Source of the DNA: an uncultured SAR324 cluster bacterium | GTDB lineage: Bacteria; SAR324; NAC60-12 | DNA: 51,070 nt | Assembly (NCBI GenBank): GCA_902513935.1 | Contig: CABXOR010000005.1 | Location: forward strand, 1 to 51,070 | Reading direction: 5' to 3' | Notes under the pieces: generated by a model | What the model was told of the DNA's origin: nothing | Database searches by the model: none | The model's input: the letters and a program-made list of their open reading frames with translations, nothing else | Shown: piece after piece, positions 27,488 through 49,328 of the stretch | Layout of the letters: each line of letters opens with the position of its first letter | How positions within the stretch are numbered: the stretch's first letter is position 1 | Translations under genes and position numbers: made by a program

Positions 27488-28189
27488 ATGTCTAATATTA
27501 AACTATTCGCAGATGGAGCTGATAAAAGAGGCATCCTTGAAATGTACAAGAATCCACGAATTGACGGTTTCACCACCAATCCCACTTTAATGCGTAAAGC
27601 AGGAATTACTGACTACGCCTCTTTTGCCAAAGATCTTCTCAGGGAAATCCCTGACAAGCCTATTTCATTTGAGGTGTTTGCGGATGAATTTAACGAGATG
27701 GAACATCAGGCTTTGGACATTGCTGGATGGGGTAAGAATGTTTATGTTAAAATTCCTGTAATGAATACAAAAAGGCAAACTTCATATGATTTGGTACAGA
27801 AATTATCTCAAGCTGGTGTTCAGTTGAACATAACGGCCATAATGACTTTAGAGCAAGTTAATAAGGTTACAGAAGCAGTACAAGGTGGAGCTTCTTGTTT
27901 TGTTTCTGTTTTTGCAGGACGAATTGCGGATACAGGTATTGATCCTGTTCCATTGATGCAAGAGGCATTGGAATTGCTCAAAGAATCTCTGAACGCAGAA
28001 TTGCTTTGGGCTAGCCCCAGAGAAGTTTTGAATGTTTATCAGGCGCAATCCATTGGTTGCCATATTATTACGGCTACAAATGACATTTTGAAAAAATTAG
28101 AATTTAAAGGCAAGGATTTGACAGATTTCTCACAAGAAACAGTTCAAATGTTTTTTAATGATGCTCAGTTGGCGGGATTTAAATTATGA
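27488..28189 (+). CDS. Transaldolase family protein
   Basis: 233 aa, the short TalC/fructose-6-phosphate-aldolase-like length. TIM-barrel motifs: FADGADKRGIL, GFTTNPTLMRKAG (about 27-39), the Schiff-base lysine K88 in VYVKIPVMNTK, NITAIMTLEQV and ASPREVLNVYQAQ. It transfers a dihydroxyacetone unit or performs a related aldol reaction between sugar phosphates. In this setting it may build a heptulose or longer ketose for the glycan, together with the GmhA- and GmhB-like genes that follow. Its stop overlaps the ATG of an epimerase relic (ATGA). Confidence 0.9.
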   Translation: MSNIKLFADGADKRGILEMYKNPRIDGFTTNPTLMRKAGITDYASFAKDLLREIPDKPISFEVFADEFNEMEHQALDIAGWGKNVYVKIPVMNTKRQTSYDLVQKLSQAGVQLNITAIMTLEQVNKVTEAVQGGASCFVSVFAGRIADTGIDPVPLMQEALELLKESLNAELLWASPREVLNVYQAQSIGCHIITATNDILKKLEFKGKDLTDFSQETVQMFFNDAQLAGFKL

Positions 28190-30700: not shown

Positions 30701-31588
30701 ATGATAATTCTTGTCTTAGGCGGTTCGGGGTTTCTAGGATCACACGTATGTGATCAGCTAAGCGAAGCAGGTCATAAAGTACGCATTTTTGACTGTGTTG
30801 AATCCCCATGGTTGCGTCCTGACCAGGACATGATTGTAGGAGATTTATTGGATGAAATATTGCTTAGAAAAGCTATAGCTGGTTGTGATGTAGTCTATAA
30901 TTTTGCTGGGATCGCTGATTTAGATTATGCTCTGGAAAAACCTGTTGAAACCGCCAGGGTGAATGTACTTGGTAATGTACTGCTACTAGACTCATGCCGA
31001 ATAGCAAATGTTCAAAGATATATATATGCCAGCACGGTCTATGTTTACAGTAGACACGGAGGATTTTACCGTTGCAGTAAGCAAGCTTCAGAACAATATT
31101 TAGAAGAGTATCAACGTACTTTTGGACTTGAATATACTATCCTACGTTACGGTTCACTTTATGGTCCTCGATCAGACGAAAGAAATGGGCTTTGGCGAAT
31201 TGTAAAAAATGCCATCGATAAAGGCATAGTCTCCTATGAAGGTAGCCCCGAGTCCATGAGAGAATATATTCACGTCGAAGATGCCGCCCGCGCAAGTGTC
31301 ACTGTCTTAGGTGATGATTTTATTAACCAGCATGTTGTACTGACGGGACAAGAGCCGATGCGGGTGGTCGATTTACTTAAAATGTTGGCGGAAATATTAG
31401 GTATTTCTCATGAAGACCCACAATTCTTTAAGACAAAACATTCTGGCCACTATATTCACACTCCATATTCGTATCAGCCCAAGCTTGGAAGAAAATATAT
31501 GTTACCTGTCCATGTGGACCTCGGGCAGGGAATTTTGCAACTTATTGAAGAGGTGCAAAAACAATCAATAAAACAAATAAACATCTAA
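30701..31588 (+). CDS. NAD-dependent epimerase/dehydratase (extended SDR)
   Basis: 295 aa. Rossmann motif GGSGFLGSH at 7-15, YASTVYVYS strand and catalytic FYRCSK (Tyr and Lys three apart), followed by LRYGSLYGPRSD and the C-terminal substrate domain. Probably epimerises or reduces a nucleotide sugar. It opens a run of six genes with gaps of nine bases or fewer except one of 33, so it likely heads an operon. Substrate may be the same sugar that the downstream cytidylyltransferase activates. Confidence 0.88.
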   Translation: MIILVLGGSGFLGSHVCDQLSEAGHKVRIFDCVESPWLRPDQDMIVGDLLDEILLRKAIAGCDVVYNFAGIADLDYALEKPVETARVNVLGNVLLLDSCRIANVQRYIYASTVYVYSRHGGFYRCSKQASEQYLEEYQRTFGLEYTILRYGSLYGPRSDERNGLWRIVKNAIDKGIVSYEGSPESMREYIHVEDAARASVTVLGDDFINQHVVLTGQEPMRVVDLLKMLAEILGISHEDPQFFKTKHSGHYIHTPYSYQPKLGRKYMLPVHVDLGQGILQLIEEVQKQSIKQINI

Positions 31589-31597
31589 TAATGAAGA

Positions 31598-32251
31598 ATG
31601 CACAACTACCGTTTTGATGCAATTGTCTTTGATTTTGACGGAACACTCATAGCATCTAACGAGATCAAAACCTGGGCATTTGGTGAATTGTATAAAGAAT
31701 ATGGAGATAACATTGTTCAGCAAATAATCACCTATAATCATGAACATGAAGGAGTATCTCGTTTTATTAAATTCCGTTACTGGCATGAAAATTTTTTAGA
31801 TCAACCTTATACTAAAGAAATCGGTAAATACCTTTCCGGAAGTTTTTCAAAGCTAGTTTTTGATGCTGTCGTTCAAGTTCCATTTGTTGAAGGTGCTATG
31901 GAATTCTTAGAGAAACATTTCCGACATATTCCCTTGTTTGTAGCATCCGGAACTCCTGAATTAGAACTGATCAAAATCATTAAACACCGCTCAATTATTC
32001 ATTTTTTTCAGGGTATTTATGGGGCTCCTTCAACAAAAACTGAAATCTTGCAAGGGATTCTTAAAGAGAACCAATTACAACCTGAAAAGATCCTAATGTT
32101 AGGGGACGCACTTACAGATTGGGAAGGGGCTCAAGGTGTGGGAGCTGAATTCATAGGGATAAAATCAGGGAAGAGTTCGAATATCTTTCCATCCTCAAAT
32201 ATTTTGCTAAATAATTTTACTGAATTGGATAAATTTGTTTACCAAAACTAA
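31598..32251 (+). CDS. HAD-IA family hydrolase (phosphatase, beta-phosphoglucomutase-like)
   Basis: 217 aa. Nucleophile motif VFDFDGTL with D12 and D14, motif II VASGTPE and motif IV LMLGDALTDWEGA. The cap domain between motifs I and II is helical, as in phosphoglucomutase and phosphoglycolate phosphatase-like enzymes. In this compact operon it probably dephosphorylates a sugar acid phosphate before CMP activation, as KdsC or NeuB-pathway phosphatases do. It lies 9 bases after the SDR, and the next ATG is 1 base after its stop. Confidence 0.85.
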   Translation: MHNYRFDAIVFDFDGTLIASNEIKTWAFGELYKEYGDNIVQQIITYNHEHEGVSRFIKFRYWHENFLDQPYTKEIGKYLSGSFSKLVFDAVVQVPFVEGAMEFLEKHFRHIPLFVASGTPELELIKIIKHRSIIHFFQGIYGAPSTKTEILQGILKENQLQPEKILMLGDALTDWEGAQGVGAEFIGIKSGKSSNIFPSSNILLNNFTELDKFVYQN

Positions 32252-32252
32252 T

Positions 32253-33095
32253 ATGAAAGAGTTTTTAAAAAACACAATTAAAAAAAATATTCAAAGTTTA
32301 ACGACGTTGCTTTCATCAACTAAAGTAGGAAGACTTTTCAATGAAGTTATAGTCAATGATGTAATGAACCGCGTTCTAGAGATGGAACATAAAGGTGTAC
32401 GCATGAAGTTCACAGTTCCAAATTCTCTCAACCGTTTCAGGGTTGAAAGCTTCTCCACGAAGGAACCTGAAACCTTGAAATGGATCGACTGTTTCCCTAA
32501 GAACGCAGTACTCTGGGACATCGGAGCGAACATAGGTTTATATTCGATTTATGCAGCAAAGAAGAAGAACTGCAGGGTGGTAGCTTTCGAACCTTCAGTT
32601 TTTAATCTTGAGTTGTTGGCCCGCAATCTGTACATGAATAATTTGCAGGATCTGGTTACCGTTGCGCCATTTGCCTTAAGTGATGGATTGGGCACAAGTC
32701 TTATGCGAATGACCACTACTGAGTGGGGAGGAGCTCTCTCAACTTTTGGTAAGGAAGTCGGATGGGACGGTGGATCTATCAAAGAGGTTTTTGCCTTTCA
32801 AACGTTTGGAGTTAATATGGATCTGGCAGTTTCTGTTCTACATCTTCCTTCTCCAGATTTCATCAAGATGGACGTTGACGGTATAGAACACTTTATACTA
32901 CAAAACGGTCCAGATGTTTTGAGCAATATACAAGGTATCCTCGTTGAAATTAATGATAAATTCATAGAACAATCAGACAAATCTAAGGAAGCACTAGAAC
33001 GCGCAGGGCTAACCTTCAAGGAAAAACTACACAGTGAAATGCTTGAAGACTCAACATTCAGTAGTACCTACAATCAAATATGGATTCGGAAATGA
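32253..33095 (+). CDS. FkbM family methyltransferase
   Basis: 280 aa from ATG 32253; an in-frame TTG at 32235 lies inside the HAD gene and is less likely. SAM motif LWDIGANIGLYSIYAAKK (about 87-104), VVAFEPS and the FkbM hallmark FIKMDVDGIEHFIL. Predicted O-methyltransferase for the sugar or lipid-linked unit built by this operon. More typical of the family than the 8006 protein, with which it shares only the core motifs. Confidence 0.88.
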   Translation: MKEFLKNTIKKNIQSLTTLLSSTKVGRLFNEVIVNDVMNRVLEMEHKGVRMKFTVPNSLNRFRVESFSTKEPETLKWIDCFPKNAVLWDIGANIGLYSIYAAKKKNCRVVAFEPSVFNLELLARNLYMNNLQDLVTVAPFALSDGLGTSLMRMTTTEWGGALSTFGKEVGWDGGSIKEVFAFQTFGVNMDLAVSVLHLPSPDFIKMDVDGIEHFILQNGPDVLSNIQGILVEINDKFIEQSDKSKEALERAGLTFKEKLHSEMLEDSTFSSTYNQIWIRK

Positions 33096-33128
33096 GTAAA
33101 TCGAAAAAAGTATCAATTAGAGATTAAA

Positions 33129-33869
33129 ATGATTGCAGCACTTCTTCTGGGGCGCAAGGGAAGTCAGGGATTCCCTGGAAAAAATACAATACCAATTCTA
33201 GGTCACCCTTTGGCGTGGTATCCGATGCAAACAGCGTTGGCTGTAAATGAAATTGATCGGATTTATTTATCCACCGATGATCCTAAGTTAATGCAGATTG
33301 CCTCCGAAATTAAGATTAATATCATTGAACGCCCAGAATATTTGGCTAATAACGAAGCCCTTGGTGAAGACGCCTATGTACATGGTTATGAGGAAATATG
33401 TAACCGTGAGAAACAAAAAATTGAACTGATGGTGCTTTTGTTCTGCAATGCAGCCACAATTTCAGTCCAGGCGATACAGGAGGGAATTAGAAAGCTTCGG
33501 GAAGATCAGTCCTTAGATTCTGCAGTAACTGTGTCGAGGTACAATATGTGGTCACCTTTGAGAGCCAGAAAACTAAACCGCGAAGGGTGTCTACGGCCTT
33601 TTATCCCGTTTGAGGTTTTTGGGGACCCCAAGACATTGAATTGCGACAGAGATTCACAGGGAGATATCTGGTATGCGGATATGGGATGTTCCATTGTCCG
33701 ACCGCAATGTTTGGAAAATATGGAAACAGGTCTTCTTCCTCAAAAGTGGATGGGAGAAAAAATATCCCCAATTTATCAGGAAGCAGGGTGTGACGTTGAT
33801 TACGAATGGCAGGTACCAGTAGTGGAATGGTGGATCAAGAAATATTGGGATGTTACTGCAAAGGATTAG
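33129..33869 (+). CDS. Cytidylyltransferase of the NeuA/KdsB (CMP-sugar synthetase) type
   Basis: 246 aa. N-terminal nucleotide-binding signature ALLLGRKGSQGFPGKN (3-18), YLSTDD (about 46-51) for the base and ribose, and DPKTLNCDRDSQ later on. CMP-sugar synthetases join CMP to 2-keto sugar acids such as sialic, pseudaminic or KDO-like acids. No NeuB-type synthase is in the window, so the acid may be made elsewhere or by an unusual route (the transaldolase and transketolase genes are candidates). It ends one base before the radical SAM gene begins, a strong sign of coupling. Confidence 0.85.
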   Translation: MIAALLLGRKGSQGFPGKNTIPILGHPLAWYPMQTALAVNEIDRIYLSTDDPKLMQIASEIKINIIERPEYLANNEALGEDAYVHGYEEICNREKQKIELMVLLFCNAATISVQAIQEGIRKLREDQSLDSAVTVSRYNMWSPLRARKLNREGCLRPFIPFEVFGDPKTLNCDRDSQGDIWYADMGCSIVRPQCLENMETGLLPQKWMGEKISPIYQEAGCDVDYEWQVPVVEWWIKKYWDVTAKD

Positions 33870-35018
33870 ATGGAGACAACGACAAAAATTTATAAAAAAC
33901 ATAACAGCTTCCATGAAATGCATATTGCTAAAGGGGAAACTTCTCCTCTGGAACAGACTCAAAGGGCACTCATTGTCTTGAAGGGGAATGATAATTGGCC
34001 TGAAAACTGGACAGAGTTACTAGGGAAGGTATGTGCTGATTTAGAGGATTTGTCCTCTTCAAAAGAATTGTTTCAGATTACACCATTTGTCGCTGACGAA
34101 ATGTTTCTTTTGTCTGACGAAGAACTACCCCGTTATCTTTTCCATCGATACCGCTATGAAATTTTCCCCACAGCCCATCTACTGGATAATTATCCACCCT
34201 ACCTGCAAATAGAACCCTCATCCATCTGTAATTATCGTTGTGTGTTTTGTTACCAGACAGATGAAAAATTTAGTGAAAAAAAATCTGTTCACATGGGATC
34301 AATGGGGCTAGACTTGTACAAAAATATTATTGATGAATCCAAGGGGAACATAGAGTTCCTTTCGCTGGCTTCCCGTGGTGAGCCATTGGTTTGCAAGGAT
34401 TTTACTAAAATGATGGAATACAGTATTGGCAAATTCCTGAACCTGAAAGTCAACACCAATGCCTCACTCATGACGGAAGCCCATTGTCATGCGTTACTCT
34501 GTGGAGGGGCCCGAACGATTGTCTTCTCTGCGGATGCTGCTGAGGAACCCCTTTACAGTCAACTTCGTGTAAATGGGAAATTGGAACGTGTGCTAAGGAA
34601 CATTGATAGGTTTCAAAAAATTCGTCAAACTCAGTATAGTTCCTCGCCCATCATTTCGAGGGTTTCTGGTGTTTTGGTTGATGATTCCCAAAACATGGCA
34701 TCCATGAAAAGCCTGTGGGGGGGACTGGTTGATCAGATCAGCTTTGTCAAATATAACCCATGGGAGAATGTTTATGATTCGCCGTTGTCACAAGTCAGCG
34801 AACCCTGTTCCGACCTTTGGCGCAGGATGTTTGTCTGGTACGATGGTAAAGTTAATCCTTGTGACACAGATTACAAATCCTTCCTGCAGGTAGGTAGTGT
34901 TAAAAATCAAACCTTAACCAAGCTTTGGCGGAATAGGGGCTATGATTTGCTCCGCGAAACACATCTTTCCAAGCAACGAAATAATGCATTTCCTTGTAAC
35001 CGATGCGTAGTGGTTTGA
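33870..35018 (+). CDS. Radical SAM/SPASM domain protein
   Basis: 382 aa. CX3CX2C at C120, C124 and C127 (SSICNYRCVFCYQ), FLSLASRGEPL with the GE motif for SAM, and a C-terminal SPASM-like region with VNPCDTDYKS and PCNRCVVV supplying cysteines for auxiliary clusters. About 110 residues precede the radical SAM core, longer than usual, and could bind the partner. Placed directly between a CMP-sugar synthetase and an SDR, it may epimerise, dehydrate or deoxygenate a sugar-linked substrate by radical chemistry. Confidence 0.88.
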   Translation: METTTKIYKKHNSFHEMHIAKGETSPLEQTQRALIVLKGNDNWPENWTELLGKVCADLEDLSSSKELFQITPFVADEMFLLSDEELPRYLFHRYRYEIFPTAHLLDNYPPYLQIEPSSICNYRCVFCYQTDEKFSEKKSVHMGSMGLDLYKNIIDESKGNIEFLSLASRGEPLVCKDFTKMMEYSIGKFLNLKVNTNASLMTEAHCHALLCGGARTIVFSADAAEEPLYSQLRVNGKLERVLRNIDRFQKIRQTQYSSSPIISRVSGVLVDDSQNMASMKSLWGGLVDQISFVKYNPWENVYDSPLSQVSEPCSDLWRRMFVWYDGKVNPCDTDYKSFLQVGSVKNQTLTKLWRNRGYDLLRETHLSKQRNNAFPCNRCVVV

Positions 35019-35025
35019 AAACAAA

Positions 35026-35739
35026 ATGGCTAATTTTTTAATTACCGGCGCGAACTCAAATATAGGGGTTGCCTGTATTCAAAATATAGTCAATTCTGGA
35101 GGTTCTGTGATCGCAATTCACAGGAAACTTGGAGATGAACTGTCCAGTCTTTGTCGTAAACATCCTTCTAAAATTGAATTGGTAAAGTTAGATTTTACTT
35201 ATCACAATCAAGTCGACAGTCTACTGGATTTAGTTGAGGTGAAAAAAAAGGAAATTGATTCATTCATAGCTTTAGCAGCACTTAGAGAAGAAAAACCTTA
35301 TGAAAAGACTTCTAGGAAAGACCTGATGAAACACTTTGAAGTCAATGTTGTTCCTACTGTTTTTATCGTTCAAAAACTTGGTGAAAGCATGTCTCAAAGG
35401 GATTGGGGGCGTATTGTAATAGGCAGTAGCATTGGTGTAAAATTTGGAGGTGGTCCTTCTTCGTTTTGTTACTCGTTAACTAAGCATTGTTCTGAATTTA
35501 TTCCAAACATTGCAAAAAAATGGTCTCGGAACAATGTGTTATACAATGTGCTAAGGATCGGGGTTACCAACACCTCTGCAATGCAGAAAAGTGGAACAGA
35601 TTTGAAACATAGAACAAAACTTATTCCAATGCAGCGTTTAGCTAAACCAGAAGAGATTGCAAAACAGATTTATTGGCTTGCATCTGAAGAAAATACTTTT
35701 GTAACGAACCAGGTAATCGAAATATCTGGAGGTGAGTGA
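35026..35739 (+). CDS. Classical short-chain dehydrogenase/reductase
   Basis: 237 aa. Cofactor motif TGANSNIG at 7-14, the NNAG-equivalent ALAAL, catalytic Ser in IVIGSSIGVKFGG, and YSLTK with Tyr and Lys, ending in the usual VTNQVIEISGG. An NAD(P)H-dependent reductase, probably for a keto group created by the upstream radical SAM enzyme or SDR. It is the last gene of the tight operon; a gap of 208 bases follows. Confidence 0.9.
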   Translation: MANFLITGANSNIGVACIQNIVNSGGSVIAIHRKLGDELSSLCRKHPSKIELVKLDFTYHNQVDSLLDLVEVKKKEIDSFIALAALREEKPYEKTSRKDLMKHFEVNVVPTVFIVQKLGESMSQRDWGRIVIGSSIGVKFGGGPSSFCYSLTKHCSEFIPNIAKKWSRNNVLYNVLRIGVTNTSAMQKSGTDLKHRTKLIPMQRLAKPEEIAKQIYWLASEENTFVTNQVIEISGGE

Positions 35740-41281: not shown

Positions 41282-42844
41282 GTGCCAGCCTCCCTCCTTA
41301 AAACCCGTGTAGTTTGTATCAATCCTAATTTAGTTCTTCAAAGGAATGATTTGTTTACAACCGGAGTTGTTTATATGCCCATAGGACTGGCGAATTTTGC
41401 AAGTACTCTTCAAACAATAGGATATTCCTGTAAAGTCGTTGATGCTTTCGGAGAGAATCCCAACCAGTATTGGGAAGAAGGTGATTTTATATTTCGTGGC
41501 CTTCTCCCCTCGGAAATCGTTGCACAAATTAATAATAATGCTGGTGAGACACCTCTAAAGATAATTTTTGTTTATGCTATAAATTTAACATATCACCAAT
41601 CAACCATTAATATCATTAAACAGATTAGGGAATCGTTCCCCAATATCTCCATTGCTGTTTTAGAAAATACACAAGCTGTGACGGCTTATGCCCTTGAAGA
41701 TATTCAGAATGAATTTTACGATGCCGGTGCAAATTATGTTGTCCTTGGAGAACCGGAACTACGAGGTACAGCCCTTATAAAACATATTGACGGTCAATGT
41801 GAAGATGATGATTTGCTAAATATAGATGGAATTGGGTTTAAACAAGAAAATGGAAGTGGGTATACTACTGCTGTAAAAAAAATCAATGATCTTGATTCTT
41901 TACCGTTTCCTGCTTGGGATCTTTTCCCATTACATAATTATTGGAAATTGAAATACGCTCATGGTCCGTTATCAGCTAAGCGTTATTTACCTATACTAAC
42001 CTCACGTGGTTGCCCGTATGCTTGTCGATTTTGTGTCATCCCAAAAACAAATAACCTCAAATGGAGGGCGCGTTCAGCAACTAATGTTGTCGATGAGATG
42101 GAACATTGGGTTAAAAAACTGGATATTAGAGAGTTTCATCTTGAAGATGTAGACCCGACAGTCAAGGACAAACGAACTCAGGAAATTTGTCTTGAAATTA
42201 TTAAAAGAAAATTAAAAATTCGGTGGAAAATTTGCTCCGGGACTAAAGTCGAAACAATTAAAAACGAGAAAACGATTGAACTAATGGCACAAGCGGGATG
42301 CTGTTATATTTCTATCTCTCCGGAAAGTGGATCACCAAGAATAATGAAAAAGTTAAATAAACCTTTTAATTATGAACATGCTGTAAACTTAATCAAAAAA
42401 ATGAATGATGTAGGTATATTTAGTCAAGCATGCTTCGTACTAGGTTTTCCCGGAGAAGAAGATGAGGACCGTGAATTAACTCGAAAAATGGTTTTTGATC
42501 TTGCTAAAGTAGGTGTCAGCGAAATCGCTCAGTTTATAATAACACCTGTTCCTGGTTCTGATATTTACTCAGAATTTTCCGGTTATTCTGATTTTTCTCA
42601 GTTGAATTTTTCACCTACATGGAGAAAAGATTATGAAAAATTAAATCGGTTTAGAATGAAACTATATGGTGAATTTTTGTGGTGGAAATTGCGATATTAC
42701 CCATTTTCTATCTTAAAACAATCGTTTAATTTTTTGTTCCGCAAGTTTAATACTAAGATGGAAATGACCCCATATCGGGCTTTGCACATGGCATTAATGC
42801 TGAAAGGTTTCATTGGGCATAAAATTCAACGCGAAAATCATTAA
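41282..42844 (+). CDS. B12-binding-domain-type radical SAM protein
   Basis: 520 aa, GTG start; the B12-binding-like domain spans about 1-190 (VVCINPN, MPIGLANFASTLQTIGYSCKVVD is the Rossmann lead-in) and again lacks an obvious DxHxxG. Radical SAM cysteines are C244, C248 and C251 in SRGCPYACRFC. Later barrel motifs are CYISISPESGSPRIMKKLNK (split around the ESGS turn) and CFVLGFPGEEDED. Predicted to carry out radical methylation or rearrangement on a sugar or lipid. A 145-base gap upstream and a methyltransferase 13 bases downstream suggest it heads a new transcription unit with 42858. Confidence 0.85.
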   Translation: MPASLLKTRVVCINPNLVLQRNDLFTTGVVYMPIGLANFASTLQTIGYSCKVVDAFGENPNQYWEEGDFIFRGLLPSEIVAQINNNAGETPLKIIFVYAINLTYHQSTINIIKQIRESFPNISIAVLENTQAVTAYALEDIQNEFYDAGANYVVLGEPELRGTALIKHIDGQCEDDDLLNIDGIGFKQENGSGYTTAVKKINDLDSLPFPAWDLFPLHNYWKLKYAHGPLSAKRYLPILTSRGCPYACRFCVIPKTNNLKWRARSATNVVDEMEHWVKKLDIREFHLEDVDPTVKDKRTQEICLEIIKRKLKIRWKICSGTKVETIKNEKTIELMAQAGCCYISISPESGSPRIMKKLNKPFNYEHAVNLIKKMNDVGIFSQACFVLGFPGEEDEDRELTRKMVFDLAKVGVSEIAQFIITPVPGSDIYSEFSGYSDFSQLNFSPTWRKDYEKLNRFRMKLYGEFLWWKLRYYPFSILKQSFNFLFRKFNTKMEMTPYRALHMALMLKGFIGHKIQRENH

Positions 42845-42857
42845 AAGTAAATTATAA

Positions 42858-43787
42858 ATGGTCTCAGAACAGTATTTGGAAACAATTGATTGTCCTATTT
42901 GTGATAGTAGAGAGTATCGTGTTCTCCGTAAAGCAAGATATTTTGAGAATATAACCCGACAAGAGTTATTAAAAATATACAAATCCTCAAGTGATACAGA
43001 GTTAAGCGACCAGCTAGTAAAGTGTTTAGGATGCGGTTTGGTTTATATTAATCCTCAGATAAATTCAGAAGTTATTCTAGAGTCCTATACAAAAGCAACT
43101 GATCCAAAATTTACCTCTCAGAACCCATTAAGAATTCGAACTTTTCGTAAATTTTTTTATCATTGGATAAAACGAGCTCAAATAAAACCTACAGTAAAAA
43201 AGAAAATCCTTGATGTTGGTTGTGCAGCTGGATCTTTCCCGAAAGTGGTAAAAGACATGGGATTTAGTGTTGTTGGAGTTGAGCCAAGCAAGTACCTATG
43301 TAATTTCGGTCAGAGGGAGTATGGTTTAGATTTGCGACAAGGAACACTTCATGAGCAGAACTTTTCTGAAGAGGAATTCAATATCGTCAGTATGTTTGAT
43401 GTAATTGAGCACTTGGACCAGCCTGGATATGTCTTAGAAGAAATCAAGAGGATTCTTCTTTCAGATGGCCATTTGATTGTTAATTATCCTGATTATGATT
43501 CTTGGCCTCGAAAATTCATGGGCACAAAATGGCCCTTTTTTCTGAGTGTACATTTATTTTATTTCACGCCACAGAGTATTCAGCAAATACTAGAAAAACA
43601 TGGGTTTCAGGTTGTTCGAATTGAGCCTTATTTTCAGACTCTCGAATTGGGATATGTGTTAGAAAGAGCTGGTCAAATATTTTACTTTGCCAAATGGGTT
43701 GAAAAGGCAGTTAAAACTCTTGGCTTGGGACAAATTCCTTTCAAGTATTATTTAGGCCAGACTTTGGTAACAGCTAAGAAAGCTTAG
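42858..43787 (+). CDS. Class I SAM-dependent methyltransferase with N-terminal Cys motif
   Basis: 309 aa. N-terminal zinc-ribbon-like CPICDSREYRVL and CLGCGLVY, then motif I ILDVGCAAGSFPKVVKD (about 115-131), GVEPSKYL and VSMFDVIEHLDQPG, ending with the typical HLFYFTPQSIQQILEKHGF. Such enzymes methylate nucleotide-sugars or glycan hydroxyls. It follows the B12-type radical SAM gene by 13 bases and precedes the HAD gene by 2, so it links two blocks transcriptionally. Confidence 0.88.
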   Translation: MVSEQYLETIDCPICDSREYRVLRKARYFENITRQELLKIYKSSSDTELSDQLVKCLGCGLVYINPQINSEVILESYTKATDPKFTSQNPLRIRTFRKFFYHWIKRAQIKPTVKKKILDVGCAAGSFPKVVKDMGFSVVGVEPSKYLCNFGQREYGLDLRQGTLHEQNFSEEEFNIVSMFDVIEHLDQPGYVLEEIKRILLSDGHLIVNYPDYDSWPRKFMGTKWPFFLSVHLFYFTPQSIQQILEKHGFQVVRIEPYFQTLELGYVLERAGQIFYFAKWVEKAVKTLGLGQIPFKYYLGQTLVTAKKA

Positions 43788-43789
43788 TT

Positions 43790-44458
43790 TTGATTCCTGA
43801 AAAAATAGGATGCATTTTTGATATGGACGGTGTGCTATTTTTAAGTAGTGAAATTCATTATCAGGCATACTGTGAGGCCTTAGCCGCGGAACCTGTTGAA
43901 GTCTTGGATTATCGTGAATTGTCTGGAATGAGAACGGATTCTGCAATCAAAAAGATTTTTAAAAAATCGGGAATCGTTTTAAATCCTGAAAAGCTGCAAG
44001 AGCTAGTTTCAAGAAAGAGAGGATCTGCATCAGAGATGCTTCGGAAACAACCACCAGTTGCTCCGGATTGTAAAAAAGTTATTGCTGAATTTTACAGAAG
44101 AGGTATTCCGCTGGCACTTGCAAGTTCTTCTTCGTCTCAAAATGTTCAATTGTTTTTGGAATCAAGCGGAACTCGCAATTATTTTTCTGTCATTCTTTCA
44201 GGTGATGATGTTAAAAATGCAAAACCAGACCAGGAAATTTTCCGGACATCCCGAAACTGTTTGGGGATTAAACCCGAATTCTGCTTTGTTGTTGAAGATT
44301 CTGAAAATGGTATCCTAGGTGCCAAAGCTGATGGAATGAAAGTAATCGGGGTTATCGGCCAACACACTAAAAAAGAACTTCAAATCTTTGGCACAGTAGC
44401 AACAATTTCACGTCTAGATGATCTTTTACAGTTAAGTGAATTTCAAAGTAACATATGA
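43790..44458 (+). CDS. HAD-IA family phosphatase (beta-phosphoglucomutase-like)
   Basis: 222 aa, TTG start. CIFDMDGVLF with D11 and D13, LASSSSSQNVQLFL as motif II, DDVKNAKPDQEIF with the Lys of motif III, and FVVEDSENGILGAKADG as motif IV. Its stop overlaps the nucleotidyltransferase start as ATGA. In this block it may dephosphorylate or mutate the substrate that the next enzyme activates. Confidence 0.88.
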   Translation: MIPEKIGCIFDMDGVLFLSSEIHYQAYCEALAAEPVEVLDYRELSGMRTDSAIKKIFKKSGIVLNPEKLQELVSRKRGSASEMLRKQPPVAPDCKKVIAEFYRRGIPLALASSSSSQNVQLFLESSGTRNYFSVILSGDDVKNAKPDQEIFRTSRNCLGIKPEFCFVVEDSENGILGAKADGMKVIGVIGQHTKKELQIFGTVATISRLDDLLQLSEFQSNI

Positions 44459-45273
44459 GCAGAATTTTTACTCAAGCAGATTTGCGAAAATTGTTTGTCT
44501 TGAATTTAAACAACGTTGATCCTTCTCGCTGGACTTGTGTTATTCCGGCAGCCGGTAAGGGTACTCGTTTAGGATATGGCTTACCTAAAATTTTGTATCC
44601 GATTTTAGGGCAACCTGTTCTTCAACATTTAATCAACTTATTCCACGAATTTTGCAGTAGTTTCGTAGTAGTTGCTTCTCCGAACGGTGCGGAAGAAATC
44701 CAGAAAGAGTTCGAAAACTGTTGTCAATCAACCGACTTTCGAATCGTAATTCAAGCAGAACCAAAGGGTATGGCTCATGCGGTTTGGCAGGCAAGGGATT
44801 CTATTGAGACTCCTAATACAGTAGTCGTTTGGGGTGACCAGATTTGTCTTAGAGATGAAACCATTTCAAGTACTTTAGCCTATCATCAGAGTGATACAGC
44901 AAACGTTTTGACTTTTCCTACAGTCATGAAAAAAAACCCATACATTCATTTCCATCGAGATAACACGGGTAAAATAATAAAGGTTTTACAAAAAAGAGAG
45001 AATGAAATTAAGACGGAAGTTGGTGAAAATGATTGTGGTTTTTTTTGTTTTTCAACTAATTCGCTGTTTTATTTATTAAAAAACAGTTTATCTTCACCGG
45101 GCAATTTAGGTTCTCAAACAAAAGAAAAAAACCTTCTTCAACTTTTTCCTCAATTCGAAATGATAGACGGTCAAGTCAATACTCTTCGTATTGCTCATTT
45201 TGAAGAAACTTTGGGAATTAACACGGTAGAAGAGGCAAAAACCGCTGAGTCCATTTTGAGGATTAGAAATTAA
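44455..45273 (+). CDS. NTP transferase domain nucleotidyltransferase (GlmU/MobA-like)
   Basis: 272 aa. Nucleotide-binding loop VIPAAGKGTRLGYGLPKIL (about 29-47), metal Asp in VVVWGDQICL, and NDCGFFCFS late in the fold. The family transfers NMP from an NTP to a phosphorylated sugar or small acid. It has no C-terminal hexapeptide acetyltransferase domain, so it is not full GlmU. CofC/FbiD of coenzyme F420 synthesis belongs to the same superfamily, which matters because a CofD-like domain is encoded next, 5 bases downstream. Confidence 0.88.
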   Translation: MSRIFTQADLRKLFVLNLNNVDPSRWTCVIPAAGKGTRLGYGLPKILYPILGQPVLQHLINLFHEFCSSFVVVASPNGAEEIQKEFENCCQSTDFRIVIQAEPKGMAHAVWQARDSIETPNTVVVWGDQICLRDETISSTLAYHQSDTANVLTFPTVMKKNPYIHFHRDNTGKIIKVLQKRENEIKTEVGENDCGFFCFSTNSLFYLLKNSLSSPGNLGSQTKEKNLLQLFPQFEMIDGQVNTLRIAHFEETLGINTVEEAKTAESILRIRN

Positions 45274-45278
45274 GAAAG

Positions 45279-47294
45279 TTGGATAATCATAAAATTAAAA
45301 TTGGGATGTTTTCGGGTGGGCGTGGAACGGAATCGCTTACGGAAGCTTTTGTCTCCCATCCTCAAATTGATCTGTTTTTACTAGTGAATGCATATGATGA
45401 CGGATTATCAACTGGCCGCTTAAGACGATTTATCCCAGGACTGTTAGGTCCCTCTGATTTTAGAAAAAATATTGTTCATCTGATACCGGCATTGGATGAA
45501 ACCGGCCGGTCTATCAAGCGTTTATTGGAGTATCGTTTCCCAAAAACACTGAAGGTTGAAAGTGCAAATCAGATTTTATCCGGGCTCTACAATACAGAAT
45601 TTGATCGAGATAATTCCGGATTGGATCCGCAATTCTGGAAAGACCTAGAATCTGTGAGTTACAAGCAAGCCCGCTATATAGAAACACAAGTAATTTCATT
45701 TTTGACATATTGCCTTCAAGAAGCTAATAACGGTAAAGTATTTGAATTTGGTGATTGCTCGTTTGGGAATCTAATTTTTGCAGGAGTTTTTTTACGCTTA
45801 GGATATGACTTCAATAGAACGATTGCAGATTTGGAAAGAGAGTTTAAACCTGCAGGAAGAGTGGTGAACGTTACTCAAGGTGATAATTATGTTTTGGTTG
45901 GCTTAAAATCAGATGGAACTTTTCTTTGCGGTGAAGCGGAAATCGTATCACCACAAAATTCTCAAGTGTTAGAAGAAATCTATCTGTTGGAGAATTATCT
46001 AACCGAAAATGAAATCCAAAAGTTGAATGATTTAAACGACTTGAAGTCGAAGAAGAATTTTTTTAAAAACAAAATTAGGGAACCTATAATTTCAGTTGAA
46101 GCACAGTCGGTTTTGGAAACAGCGGACTTAATCATTTTTGGTCCGGGAACTCAGCATTCATCGCTTTTTCCTTCTTATCTGTCCAAAGGAGTTGGGGAAG
46201 CAATCTCAACAAATAAAACTGCTGAAAAAGTGTTTCTTGCTAATACACGTAAAGATCATGAAATACAAGGTGAGACAATGTCGTCTTTGTGCAGCAAACT
46301 GCATTACTATTTGAATCGTAAAGGAGAGATAAATCATCCGCCAGAAAGTTATGTGACACGGTATTTCTTTCAAGAACCCACGGGACTCCAAAAAAAAGGC
46401 AAAGATTACTTGGAACTTGAATCCTATTTTGCCTTTCCTTCAAGACAAACTATAATCACAGACTGGGAGTCTGATTCAGGGAAGCATTCTGGGAATCGGG
46501 TGCTCGATGAGCTAATTGCAATTGTAAATGAGCGTGCGAAAATTTCTTTGAAGACGTTTTCGTACATGGTTTCTATCGTGGTACCGGTCTTAAATGAAGA
46601 GAGAACATTGGAAATTGTCTTAAATAAGTTAAATTTATTGAATTTCCAGCCATACGGACTTTCGAAAGAAATAATTGTTGTTGATGGAGGGTCACAGGAT
46701 GGTTCTAAAGAAGTTGTTAAAAACAAGGGATACATTCGTTATTTTAATTTGCCTAAAGAAATGAATGGCAGAGGGGCAGCTTTACGATATGGATCGAGAC
46801 AAGCTCGCGGAAACATTGTAGTGTTTTTTCATTCTGACGGTGAGTATGAACCTGGAAACATCATTGATTTAGTCCGATTCCTTCAGAAAGACGAATATGA
46901 GGCTGTTTTCGGGAGCAGATCGATAAAGTGTTTGAATCTTGATGATAGAATAAAAACGATTTATCGAGGGAATAAAATTTCATACCTTATCTCAAAATAT
47001 GGTGGTTTATCACTAAGTGTTTTATGTTTATTCCTTTTTAATCGTTATGTTACAGATCCGTTGACAGGTCTAAAAGCATTTGATAGAAGGCTTTTGAAAA
47101 AGCTTGATTTGAAGTCTGATGGTGTGGAACTAGAAACAGAAATTATCGCCAAACTATCCAGGAATCAAAAATTTATTCTCGAAGTTCCTGTTGATTACCG
47201 TCCGCGCCTTAAATCTGAGGGTAAAAAGATTACAGTTCTTGATGGCTTTAAAGCCTTAATAACACTTGTTAGGATACGTTTTTCACGGGATTAA
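45279..47294 (+). CDS. Fusion: YvcK/CofD-like domain with C-terminal GT2 domain
   Basis: 671 aa, TTG start. Residues 1-about 420 are a YvcK/CofD superfamily fold: FSGGRGTESLTEAF (about 11-24), NAYDDGLSTGRLRRF with the DDG..S.GRLR pattern (about 38-52), LGPSDFRKNIV (56-66), SFGNLIFAGVF and LIIFGPGTQHSSLFP. Residues about 428-671 are a GT2 domain with VSIVVPVLNEERTLEIVL, IIVVDGGSQDGS, HSDGEYEP and VTDPLTGLKAF. CofD transfers a phospholactyl-type group from a GDP-activated donor; YvcK binds UDP-sugars. This domain pair could activate, phosphorylate or transfer a unit within the glycan. The GT2 part is a divergent tandem relative of the next gene. Confidence 0.85.
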   Translation: MDNHKIKIGMFSGGRGTESLTEAFVSHPQIDLFLLVNAYDDGLSTGRLRRFIPGLLGPSDFRKNIVHLIPALDETGRSIKRLLEYRFPKTLKVESANQILSGLYNTEFDRDNSGLDPQFWKDLESVSYKQARYIETQVISFLTYCLQEANNGKVFEFGDCSFGNLIFAGVFLRLGYDFNRTIADLEREFKPAGRVVNVTQGDNYVLVGLKSDGTFLCGEAEIVSPQNSQVLEEIYLLENYLTENEIQKLNDLNDLKSKKNFFKNKIREPIISVEAQSVLETADLIIFGPGTQHSSLFPSYLSKGVGEAISTNKTAEKVFLANTRKDHEIQGETMSSLCSKLHYYLNRKGEINHPPESYVTRYFFQEPTGLQKKGKDYLELESYFAFPSRQTIITDWESDSGKHSGNRVLDELIAIVNERAKISLKTFSYMVSIVVPVLNEERTLEIVLNKLNLLNFQPYGLSKEIIVVDGGSQDGSKEVVKNKGYIRYFNLPKEMNGRGAALRYGSRQARGNIVVFFHSDGEYEPGNIIDLVRFLQKDEYEAVFGSRSIKCLNLDDRIKTIYRGNKISYLISKYGGLSLSVLCLFLFNRYVTDPLTGLKAFDRRLLKKLDLKSDGVELETEIIAKLSRNQKFILEVPVDYRPRLKSEGKKITVLDGFKALITLVRIRFSRD

Positions 47295-47302
47295 ACCTTT
47301 AT

Positions 47303-48061
47303 ATGAAAATACTTTCTATCATCATTCCTGCATACAATGAAGAAAAGTATATTTCCCAACTTTTGGTTCAGATTCAATCCGTAGATACGGAAATTATTGG
47401 TTTCATGAAGGAAATCATCGTAGTTGATGACGGTTCTACGGACCAGACACGAGACTTAGCCCATAAAGTAGCAATTGGCCAACCAGGTACTACCGTAATT
47501 CATCAAGACAATCAAGGAAAAGGGAATGCCGTGCAAAGAGGGGTTCAAGAAGCTAAAGGTGATTTTGTACTTGTTCAAGATGCTGATTTGGAATACAATC
47601 CCAACGATTATATTCCGATGCTAAAGTGCTTAATAAATTCTCGCACCTCAGTGTATGGCAGTCGTATATTGGGGCAGATCAAGTTTTATAACAGGAAGTT
47701 TCCTTTTTTTGGGAAACATCCTGGTCAAGATTTTGGGCCATGGCTTGCTGGAGTATTTTTGACAATTTGGGTATTTATACTCTTTGGTCGCTGGATAACT
47801 GATACATTAACAGCGTACAAAATTTACCCGATTGACGTGATCCGAGGAATGGATATTGTAACACATGGATTTGAAACAGATCATGAGATTACTGCAAAAC
47901 TGATAAATAATGGAATACAAATAGTAGAAGTACCTATTAAGTACTACCCCCGCTCGTTTGAAGAAGGGAAGAAAATTAAAATGCGAGATGGCTTTGTGGC
48001 TATTTGGACATTTGTACGTTTTCGATTTAAAAAATCAATTATTATTACAAATAATAACTAA
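47303..48061 (+). CDS. Family 2 glycosyltransferase (polyprenyl-phosphate sugar synthase-like)
   Basis: 252 aa. LSIIIPAYNEEKYISQLL (4-21), IIVVDDGSTDQTRDLA, QDADLEYNPNDY (metal-binding DAD) and YGSRIL. The C-terminal EVPIKYYPRSFEEGKKIKMRDGF is shared in pattern with the end of the upstream fusion (VPVDYRPRLKSEGKKITVLDGF), so the two arose by duplication. Enzymes of this type often make dolichyl/undecaprenyl-phosphate-linked sugars. A hydrophobic segment near 150-165 may be membrane-embedded. Confidence 0.9.
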   Translation: MKILSIIIPAYNEEKYISQLLVQIQSVDTEIIGFMKEIIVVDDGSTDQTRDLAHKVAIGQPGTTVIHQDNQGKGNAVQRGVQEAKGDFVLVQDADLEYNPNDYIPMLKCLINSRTSVYGSRILGQIKFYNRKFPFFGKHPGQDFGPWLAGVFLTIWVFILFGRWITDTLTAYKIYPIDVIRGMDIVTHGFETDHEITAKLINNGIQIVEVPIKYYPRSFEEGKKIKMRDGFVAIWTFVRFRFKKSIIITNNN

Positions 48062-48068
48062 TATAAAA

Positions 48069-49328
48069 ATGGATTTAGATTTTTTGATGTTTACTAATAT
48101 TGTTTTTCCAATATTGTGTATTATTGGATTTTGTCACAGTAATAAAGGAATCATAATTGATCATGTGTTTATCATAAGTGTAGGGTATTTATTTTATTGG
48201 ATGATGCCTCTCGTTACTTATCACTATGGTTTCCTAGAAAATATATTTAATGAAGAAAAATATGCAATAAATTTTGGAATTGAAAACTATATAATTAAGT
48301 ATGATATGAAAATAAAATATTTAATTATAGCATTCGGTATTTATGTTTCCTTTATTATTGGACATGCTTTATCAATTAGAATAAAAATAAATTATTACAA
48401 AATATACCCTTTTTCATTAAAACCATTAAAATACATATCATATATATTTTTAGTATTATTGATTTTAATTACTGTAGCAAACTATGAGTATCATTTAAGA
48501 GGTTACACTAGGACAATATTTACATTAAAGGGTAATATCATTGCTTTAAATTTATTTTTTCTAACCTTACTAATTATGTATTTTACCTTATCTAATAAAT
48601 CATACAAATACACAAATGTATTCAAAAATAACATTTTTTATATTTATGCAATATCTTCAATATTATTAGCATCCTTAGGAAATAGAACATGGATAATATG
48701 CGGAATTATATCATTCTTTATTATTTATACTAATTATTACAAAAGATTACCAATAAAATATCTAACACTTTTATGTGTCTCTCTTATCATAGTACTTGCT
48801 GTTTTTGCGCGATACAGGACGGGTAATTTTGATTCTATTACAATATACAGAATAATACAATTAGGAATCTTTGACACTTATGCAATCCATAATGGGTTGA
48901 AAGCCTACTTGGTAAATAACGAAATACAAAATTTTAATATCCCAATAGTATTGTTGAGTAAGTTATATAACATTATTCCAACACTGATTATTCCAAATAA
49001 GGAAGAGTTGTACACAACGTATTCCGAGATTGGTGTAAATTTCAAATCAATACAATCTGCATGGCACTCATTCGCATCACTGATGGTCCATTTTGGTGCG
49101 GGAGGATCAATGCTACTCTCATTTTTCTTACCGTTTATGCTTAACTATTTAAGAAAATCTATATATTTAAAGGCTTCATATGTTGTTATTACAGCTCATT
49201 TTGCTGCACCATTATTTAGAGATTTCGACAACTTCGCAATAAAGATATTTTTGCAAATATGTATTATAATGCCTTTAATATATTTGTTAATTTGTAATAT
49301 ATATCCAAGAGTAGCTGAAAGAAAATGA
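48069..49328 (+). CDS. wzy: O-antigen polymerase-like multi-spanning membrane protein (Wzy type)
   Basis: 419 aa from ATG 48069, 8 bases after the GT2 stop; a longer in-frame start at 47958 lies within the GT2 gene and would add a soluble tail, so I reject it. About ten hydrophobic segments span nearly the whole protein, with a large polar loop near residues 270-325 (containing ARYRTGNFDS and NAKE-like NKEELYTTYS), the usual Wzy layout with a periplasmic loop between late helices. Wzy joins lipid-linked repeat units on the periplasmic face. Family sequence is poorly conserved, so this rests on topology and on the neighbouring wzz and glycosyltransferases. Very AT-rich. Confidence 0.7.
   Translation: MDLDFLMFTNIVFPILCIIGFCHSNKGIIIDHVFIISVGYLFYWMMPLVTYHYGFLENIFNEEKYAINFGIENYIIKYDMKIKYLIIAFGIYVSFIIGHALSIRIKINYYKIYPFSLKPLKYISYIFLVLLILITVANYEYHLRGYTRTIFTLKGNIIALNLFFLTLLIMYFTLSNKSYKYTNVFKNNIFYIYAISSILLASLGNRTWIICGIISFFIIYTNYYKRLPIKYLTLLCVSLIIVLAVFARYRTGNFDSITIYRIIQLGIFDTYAIHNGLKAYLVNNEIQNFNIPIVLLSKLYNIIPTLIIPNKEELYTTYSEIGVNFKSIQSAWHSFASLMVHFGAGGSMLLSFFLPFMLNYLRKSIYLKASYVVITAHFAAPLFRDFDNFAIKIFLQICIIMPLIYLLICNIYPRVAERK

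Follow-up and report, generated by a model that had tools for sequence, protein, structure and literature searches.

The window analysed here, a 51,070-nucleotide stretch of contig CABXOR010000005.1 from an uncultured SAR324 cluster bacterium, carries a rare gene set that appears to build a sugar phosphate, after its activation, into a surface glycan by means of a fusion between a YvcK/GlmR-like domain and a family 2 glycosyltransferase (GT2). Its core consists of four tightly packed open reading frames (ORFs) on the forward strand, spaced by -4, 5 and 8 bases, and both this layout and the four protein families proposed in a preliminary description of the locus are confirmed: Pfam assigns a HAD protein (HAD_2, 105 bits), a nucleotidyltransferase (NTP_transf_3, 62 bits), a fused protein (CofD PF01933, 84 bits, residues 10-345; Glycos_transf_2, 85 bits, residues 432-591) and a separate GT2 (Glycos_transf_2, 101 bits). 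The two GT2 domains are indeed related, with 31.7% identity over 243 amino acids.

43790..44458, forward strand: HAD ORF of the beta-phosphoglucomutase type, TTG start
44455..45273, forward strand: GlmU-like nucleotidyltransferase ORF, overlapping the HAD gene by 4 bases
45279..47294, forward strand: fused YvcK/GlmR-like and GT2 ORF, 671 amino acids, 5 bases after the nucleotidyltransferase gene
45279..46538, forward strand: YvcK/GlmR-like domain (UPF0052/CofD fold), residues 1-420 of the fused protein
45540..45743, forward strand: extra helical insert, residues about 88-155 of the fused protein, between the second metal aspartate and the GN motif
46554..47294, forward strand: GT-A/GT2 domain of the fused protein
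47303..48061, forward strand: separate GT2 ORF, 8 bases after the fused gene, of the polyprenyl-phosphate glycosyltransferase kind (AglJ/DPMS-like)

Conserved features of the fused protein

The N-terminal domain of the fused protein has the YvcK/GlmR fold and is nearer to YvcK/GlmR than to CofD, by sequence as well as by fold. It scores 72 bits against TIGR01826 (YvcK), below the curated cut-off of 196, and its best NCBIfam match, TIGR04357, the CofD-like protein of a 'GAK system' (a phrase found in no paper of the literature searched), stands at 91.6 bits, far below the 340-bit cut-off. Across 15 genomes of one class, the GAK family gives two matches (99.8 and 81.4 bits), both below cut-off, of which one is the fused gene of the window's genome and the other lies in a 965-residue frame. 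TIGR01819 (CofD) is not among the 20 NCBIfam matches of the window's fused protein at E <= 0.01, and no fused protein passes its cut-off, one (G034) reaching 24 bits. In alignment with six CofD proteins, the CofD motifs SPDxDT, GDRD and PSNPxxSI are absent, the window reading GPSDxRK, DCSxGN and GPGTQxSS. A sequence search of solved structures did not return CofD/FbiA, which proves nothing alone, and the comparison of folds does recover FbiA. The preliminary description had considered that the domain might group with regulatory YvcK proteins lacking transferase residues; it does group with YvcK/GlmR and not with CofD, but since GlmR is itself reported as an enzyme, this grouping does not amount to a lack of transferase residues.

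Conservation was assessed in alignment A2 (78 rows, triple fusions and truncated genes excluded), in which N37, Y39, D40, D41, S44, R49, P58, D60, R62, K63, R86, N164, N179, E219, Q292, Y300, N322, D326 and H403 are invariant. Among 76 core proteins, D40, D41 and D60 occur in all 71 with letters at these positions, the other 5 having gaps. Genome loci were found by the peptide patterns GPGTQ[HN]SSL and N[AT]YDDG[LH]ST, so that those positions are partly selected. The window itself and finds of a protein search that requires shared five-residue words account for 56 of the 78 rows; D60, R62, K63, R86, N164, N179, E219, N322, D326 and H403 lie outside the search patterns. In FbiA the metal ligands are D45 and D57 (PMC7253369; papers are cited here by PMC number), and their equivalents, D40 and D60, are kept in all 78 rows, an equivalence based on alignment and spacing rather than on superposed ligands. 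Both metal aspartates of CofD are therefore shared at the level of alignment. Moreover, GlmR of Listeria monocytogenes needs D40/D41, a triple mutant including N198 being about 100-fold less active (PMC10128056), and that of Bacillus subtilis needs D38/D39 (PMC13046274).

From YvcK/GlmR (UPF0052) the domain differs in its GT2 fusion, in an insert of about 60 residues, in serine (74 rows) or threonine (4 rows) at the position of GlmR N198, and in a variable R301 position. The spacing from the second metal aspartate to the GN motif is 85-99 residues in 18 of the 23 fused rows measured (the pattern did not fit in 5), against 30-34 in nine YvcK and 43-44 in six CofD proteins.

The fused GT2 domain is nearest by fold to dolichyl-phosphate-mannose synthase, GpgS and ArnC, sharing their GT-A fold and differing in its YvcK-like fusion and in the loss of the donor motif in one clade. 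The donor motif DGGSxD and a DxD-like site are found in the window and in 67 of the 78 rows. Proteins with an intact fused GT2 are referred to as group A, and the clade in which the donor-nucleotide motif is lost as group B, which comprises 26 fused genes between loci L046 and L076, 11 of them in A2. Group B keeps D520, R547 and D593, as well as the GT-A fold in the one member modelled. In the separate GT2, the donor and DxD motifs are intact in the window; across the module the DGS motif is preceded by D or N, and DxD is present in 46 of 48 proteins. At L070:11976-14207, a single protein of 743 amino acids combines the separate GT2 with a region of about 8 hydrophobic segments, as if the GT2 had been joined to its membrane partner.

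These features bear on a possible regulatory role, in which the YvcK-like domain would sense a nucleoside diphosphate sugar (NDP-sugar), as GlmR senses UDP-N-acetylglucosamine (UDP-GlcNAc), and would tune the glycosyltransferase to which it is fused. UDP-GlcNAc binding is reported to moderate GlmR function (PMC13046274), and the position of R301, which together with Y265 contacts UDP-GlcNAc in B. subtilis YvcK (PMC5482804), is R in 22 and K in 17 of the 78 rows, including K402 of the window. However, the same position is V in 15 rows, A in 12 and another residue in 12, and no tyrosine stands opposite Y265 in the 8 fused rows printed, where the stretch is poorly aligned. Furthermore, the active-site residues remain invariant while the fused GT2 of group B decays, the reverse of what regulation predicts, which makes this role improbable.

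Partner enzymes, neighbourhood and distribution

The nucleotidyltransferase is nearest to GlmU in the PDB and in NCBIfam (99.9 bits, below the curated cut-off of 450), with profile scores of 203 against seven GlmU sequences and 40 against five CofC sequences; an eighth GlmU was excluded, none of its frames having passed the filter for length and motif. Sixty module sequences were aligned, short or distant ones being dropped from the 63 proteins that matched the profile. The GlmU catalytic residues K25, Q76, D105 and N227, the last of which we take to be catalytic, correspond by PDB alignment to K45 (60/60), Q100 (57/60), D128 (60/60) and N256 (57/60, with 3 gaps). The first three are named among the catalytic residues of GlmU in PMC10128056. 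Unlike GlmU, the module enzyme lacks the acetyltransferase half and carries a signature of its own, W126 (60/60), Y163 (60/60), R181 (59/60) and D193 (60/60), partly at positions where GlmU differs, which suggests one specific substrate.

The preliminary description had called this enzyme GlmU/MobA-like, had compared it with CofC and had suggested that a phospho-acid such as phosphoglycerate or phospholactate is activated in the manner of CofC and moved onto the glycan in the manner of CofD. It had named clustering with hexose-1-phosphate enzymes as a refuting outcome; the grouping with GlmU, a sugar-1-phosphate enzyme, and not with CofC speaks against that view, and PF01983 (CofC) is not among the three Pfam matches of the window's nucleotidyltransferase at E <= 0.01. 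FbiD is reported to use three metal aspartates, D116, D188 and D190 (PMC8764529), whereas the module family has D128 and N256, the GlmU pattern, in a comparison of patterns and not of residues aligned to FbiD itself. Nothing specific for lactate or glycerate was found, and the phospho-acid idea, now very improbable, was rejected as the leading one. There is good reason for its general logic, with a nucleotidyltransferase activating a substrate that a UPF0052-fold partner then uses, but the chemistry it named is not supported. The CofC/CofD pair of F420 synthesis follows a like logic (PMC8764529), with both module members belonging to other subfamilies.

The best matches of the HAD protein are mostly beta-phosphoglucomutases, at scores below the NCBIfam curated cut-offs (TIGR01990, 104.7 against 189.4 bits; TIGR02009, 120.2 against 153.35 bits). 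The key residues of Lactococcus lactis beta-phosphoglucomutase (bPGM) are presumably D8, D10, H20, R49, K76, K145, E169 and D170. In an alignment of 41 module HADs, from 48 proteins matched, the equivalents D11, H23, K76, K145, E169 and D170 are present in all 41 and D13 (bPGM D10) in 40, while the position of bPGM R49 (R48 in the window) is R in 24, in a loop one residue shorter. The His-Lys pair (bPGM His20/Lys76) would favour a mutase over a phosphatase. Since a mutase acting ahead of the nucleotidyltransferase would lead to an NDP-sugar, we prefer this role and regard a phosphatase as the less probable alternative.

The neighbourhood was surveyed in 79 loci, from the best 80 of 89 confirmed stretches. 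Neighbours were counted by six-frame profile search (E <= 1e-5, within 7 kb of the fused gene), since ORF-based counts miss genes hidden by antisense ORFs in GC-rich loci, and were counted in the 43 loci (25 group A, 18 group B) with at least 4 kb upstream and at least 5 kb downstream; the profiles were built from these same loci, and any relative of GT2 or of the short-chain dehydrogenases/reductases (SDRs) counts. L045 and L065, whose fused genes are absent from the alignment of the core proteins, were assigned to group B by gene order, and L074, L075, L078 and L079 belong to neither group. A nucleotidyltransferase lies near the fused gene in 40 of the 43 loci, a HAD in 33 and a separate GT2 in 35. 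Group A loci have a nucleotidyltransferase in 22 cases, HAD in 20, separate GT2 in 20, methyltransferase in 19, radical S-adenosylmethionine (SAM) protein in 15 and SDR in 7, and two of the three without a nearby nucleotidyltransferase (L014, L019) have one farther downstream. The corresponding numbers in group B are 18 for the nucleotidyltransferase, 16 for SDR, 15 for separate GT2, 13 for HAD and 1 for radical SAM. A sugar is also indicated by the SDR genes near 16 of the 18 group B loci; the one SDR tested is GalE-like, scoring 160.9 bits against a cut-off of 262.

The module's genes also occur as fusions. The nucleotidyltransferase, YvcK-like and GT2 domains form one polypeptide in 7 among 120 homologues listed and also in six loci (L004, L009, L018, L027, L028 and L039; the L027 and L028 fused proteins are identical), and HAD and nucleotidyltransferase are fused in L005, L017, L023 and L036. 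The pairing of nucleotidyltransferase and UPF0052/CofD-fold domain put forward in the preliminary description is thus borne out, by adjacent genes and by single polypeptides in some homologues. CofC and CofD reactions are reported to proceed only in combination (PMC8764529), and the triple fusions may be read as an echo of this. Recurrence across many phyla, together with the fusions, is what suggests that the grouping exceeds chance.

Judged by simple hydropathy, 21 of the 25 group A loci and 9 of the 18 in group B have a polytopic protein of at least 350 residues within 7 kb, such proteins being common in glycan loci anyway. Of the 18 group B loci, 6 have a TPR-GT41 protein within 5 kb. Genes for such proteins (SPINDLY/O-GlcNAc-transferase-like) neighbour the module in loci of Alphaproteobacteria and Magnetococcales, which hints at a link to the glycosylation of proteins; in L054, L055, L057, L059, L060, L063, L064, L066 and L067 they precede the fused gene by about 3 kb, and in L016 and L032 they lie downstream of it. 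In L074 and L075 (Pyrinomonadaceae), a divergent fused protein is followed directly by three methyltransferase-like genes.

In the window, the run is longer than the quartet first described, and the upstream pair recurs with the module:

41282..42844, forward strand: B12/radical SAM protein, 13 bases before the methyltransferase gene
42858..43787, forward strand: SAM methyltransferase (Methyltransf_23) with a Cys-rich N-terminus, ending 2 bases before the HAD gene
48069..49328, forward strand: polytopic membrane protein, 419 amino acids from ATG 48069, about 8 hydrophobic segments, starting 7 bases past the GT2 gene

The membrane protein (longer ORF 47958-49328) has no Pfam or NCBIfam match at E <= 0.01. 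Other glycan genes lie farther upstream. Those at 30701-35739 (a LegB/GalE-like SDR, a PseF-like cytidylyltransferase, an FkbM methyltransferase, a radical SAM/SPASM-like protein and another SDR) form a putative sugar pathway, with most family matches below their own cut-offs, and a transaldolase gene within the glycan region occupies 27488-28189 (TIGR02134, 332 bits, over cut-off). Scans for promoters (35 against 32.7 in shuffles, sd 7.1) and terminators (8 against 5.3, sd 2.6) were near shuffle level and were not used.

The spread of the module is patchy. At E <= 0.001, 2966 homologues, not all necessarily fused, were found among 7997 scored candidates, and the tree carries 15 phylum-level labels; in one phylum, a single genome of 58, that of the window, has the module at E <= 1e-60. 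In a Bryobacterales strain the module is plasmid-borne (L024; AP025254.1, plasmid pF-183-2), in keeping with this patchiness. CofD over the cut-off is absent from 28 of 34 module genomes, and 9 of the 34 have some match at E <= 0.001; six separate CofD genes exceed the TIGR01819 cut-off, never the fused protein. CofC is over its cut-off in 6 of the 34 (one marginal, 22 bits), the 10 PF01983 matches all fall on contigs other than that of the module, and a separate YvcK over cut-off is also found in 9. An F420-related origin was rejected, since most module genomes are without CofD and the CofC matches are few and off the module's contig.

Candidate reactions

What the analysis shows are the genes themselves, the folds predicted for them, the residues that are conserved and a neighbourhood that recurs; every reaction step is our inference from these. 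The HAD protein, as a mutase of the beta-phosphoglucomutase type, would convert a sugar 6-phosphate into the 1-phosphate, and the GlmU-like enzyme, given its retained catalytic residues, would couple this to a nucleoside triphosphate to give an NDP-sugar, probably modified in many related loci by SDRs of the NDP-sugar type. The YvcK/GlmR-like domain, the presumed catalytic heart, would bind the NDP-sugar through a metal held by D40/D60; most likely, an acceptor hydroxyl (or lipid phosphate) would then attack the beta-phosphate, the nucleoside monophosphate would leave, and sugar phosphate would be transferred as in CofD. The helical insert and the GT-A domain may hold a glycan- or lipid-linked acceptor, while the second GT2, with the downstream membrane enzyme, may supply that glycan with a polyprenyl-phosphate sugar. 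The part of the scheme to which we commit is that a sugar is activated as an NDP-sugar and then used in the YvcK-like site; a sugar-activation and transfer module with CofD-type transfer by this domain is assigned a probability of slightly below 40%.

A plainer route, tentative but substantial, would have the nucleotidyltransferase or the GlmR-like domain make an NDP-sugar and the YvcK-like domain hand it to its own or the neighbouring GT2, no phosphodiester being formed. The closest relative, GlmR, binds UDP-sugars and reportedly synthesizes UDP-GlcNAc (PMC5482804, PMC10128056), and its required D40 and D41 are kept; the triple fusions suggest channelling, and the separate GT2 retains its DGS-type motif and DxD. 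Against this, the fused proteins of group B are without a donor-nucleotide motif of their own, which rules out hand-over to the fused GT2 as a function common to both groups. In addition, the N198 position is S or T throughout, and a second nucleotidyltransferase activity would be redundant beside the GlmU-like enzyme, although the two enzymes GlmU and GlmR reportedly occur together. Three features place CofD-type transfer slightly ahead of both hand-over and GlmR-type chemistry: the constant nucleotidyltransferase partner, the acceptor-side insert and the decay of the group B donor motif.

Several points nevertheless weigh against CofD-type transfer. The domain is nearer to GlmR, whose reported reaction is nucleotidyl transfer, and the GDRD and PSNPxxSI motifs of CofD are missing; the intact fused GT2 of group A means that ordinary glycosyl transfer needs no phosphotransfer step. 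The search patterns themselves account in part for the invariance of N37-T45 and G288-L296, 10 of the 43 loci have no HAD within 7 kb, L074/L075 have no nucleotidyltransferase relative within that distance, and the conserved neighbours are compatible with many glycan pathways.

No description of the fusion or of the quartet was found among the papers listed in the literature searched, which does not extend to most subscription journals. A further and more doubtful proposal is that the module adds a third pair for activation and transfer, again with a UPF0052-fold partner, to GlmU/GlmR and CofC/CofD, in which a soluble phosphoglycosyltransferase with an acceptor-positioning GT-A domain would form glycosyl-phosphodiester (or lipid pyrophosphate) links in surface glycans, unlike the known membrane and Stealth types.

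GlmR is important for cell-wall homeostasis and its chemistry has only recently been reported, while CofD, its distant relative, carries out another reaction. Here, one branch of the fold stays beside its own nucleotidyltransferase and is fused to a glycosyltransferase across many phyla, and so lends itself naturally to probing the capabilities of the fold. Group B, whose glycosyltransferase half is without the donor motif, allows this question to be put to the test with a single purified protein.
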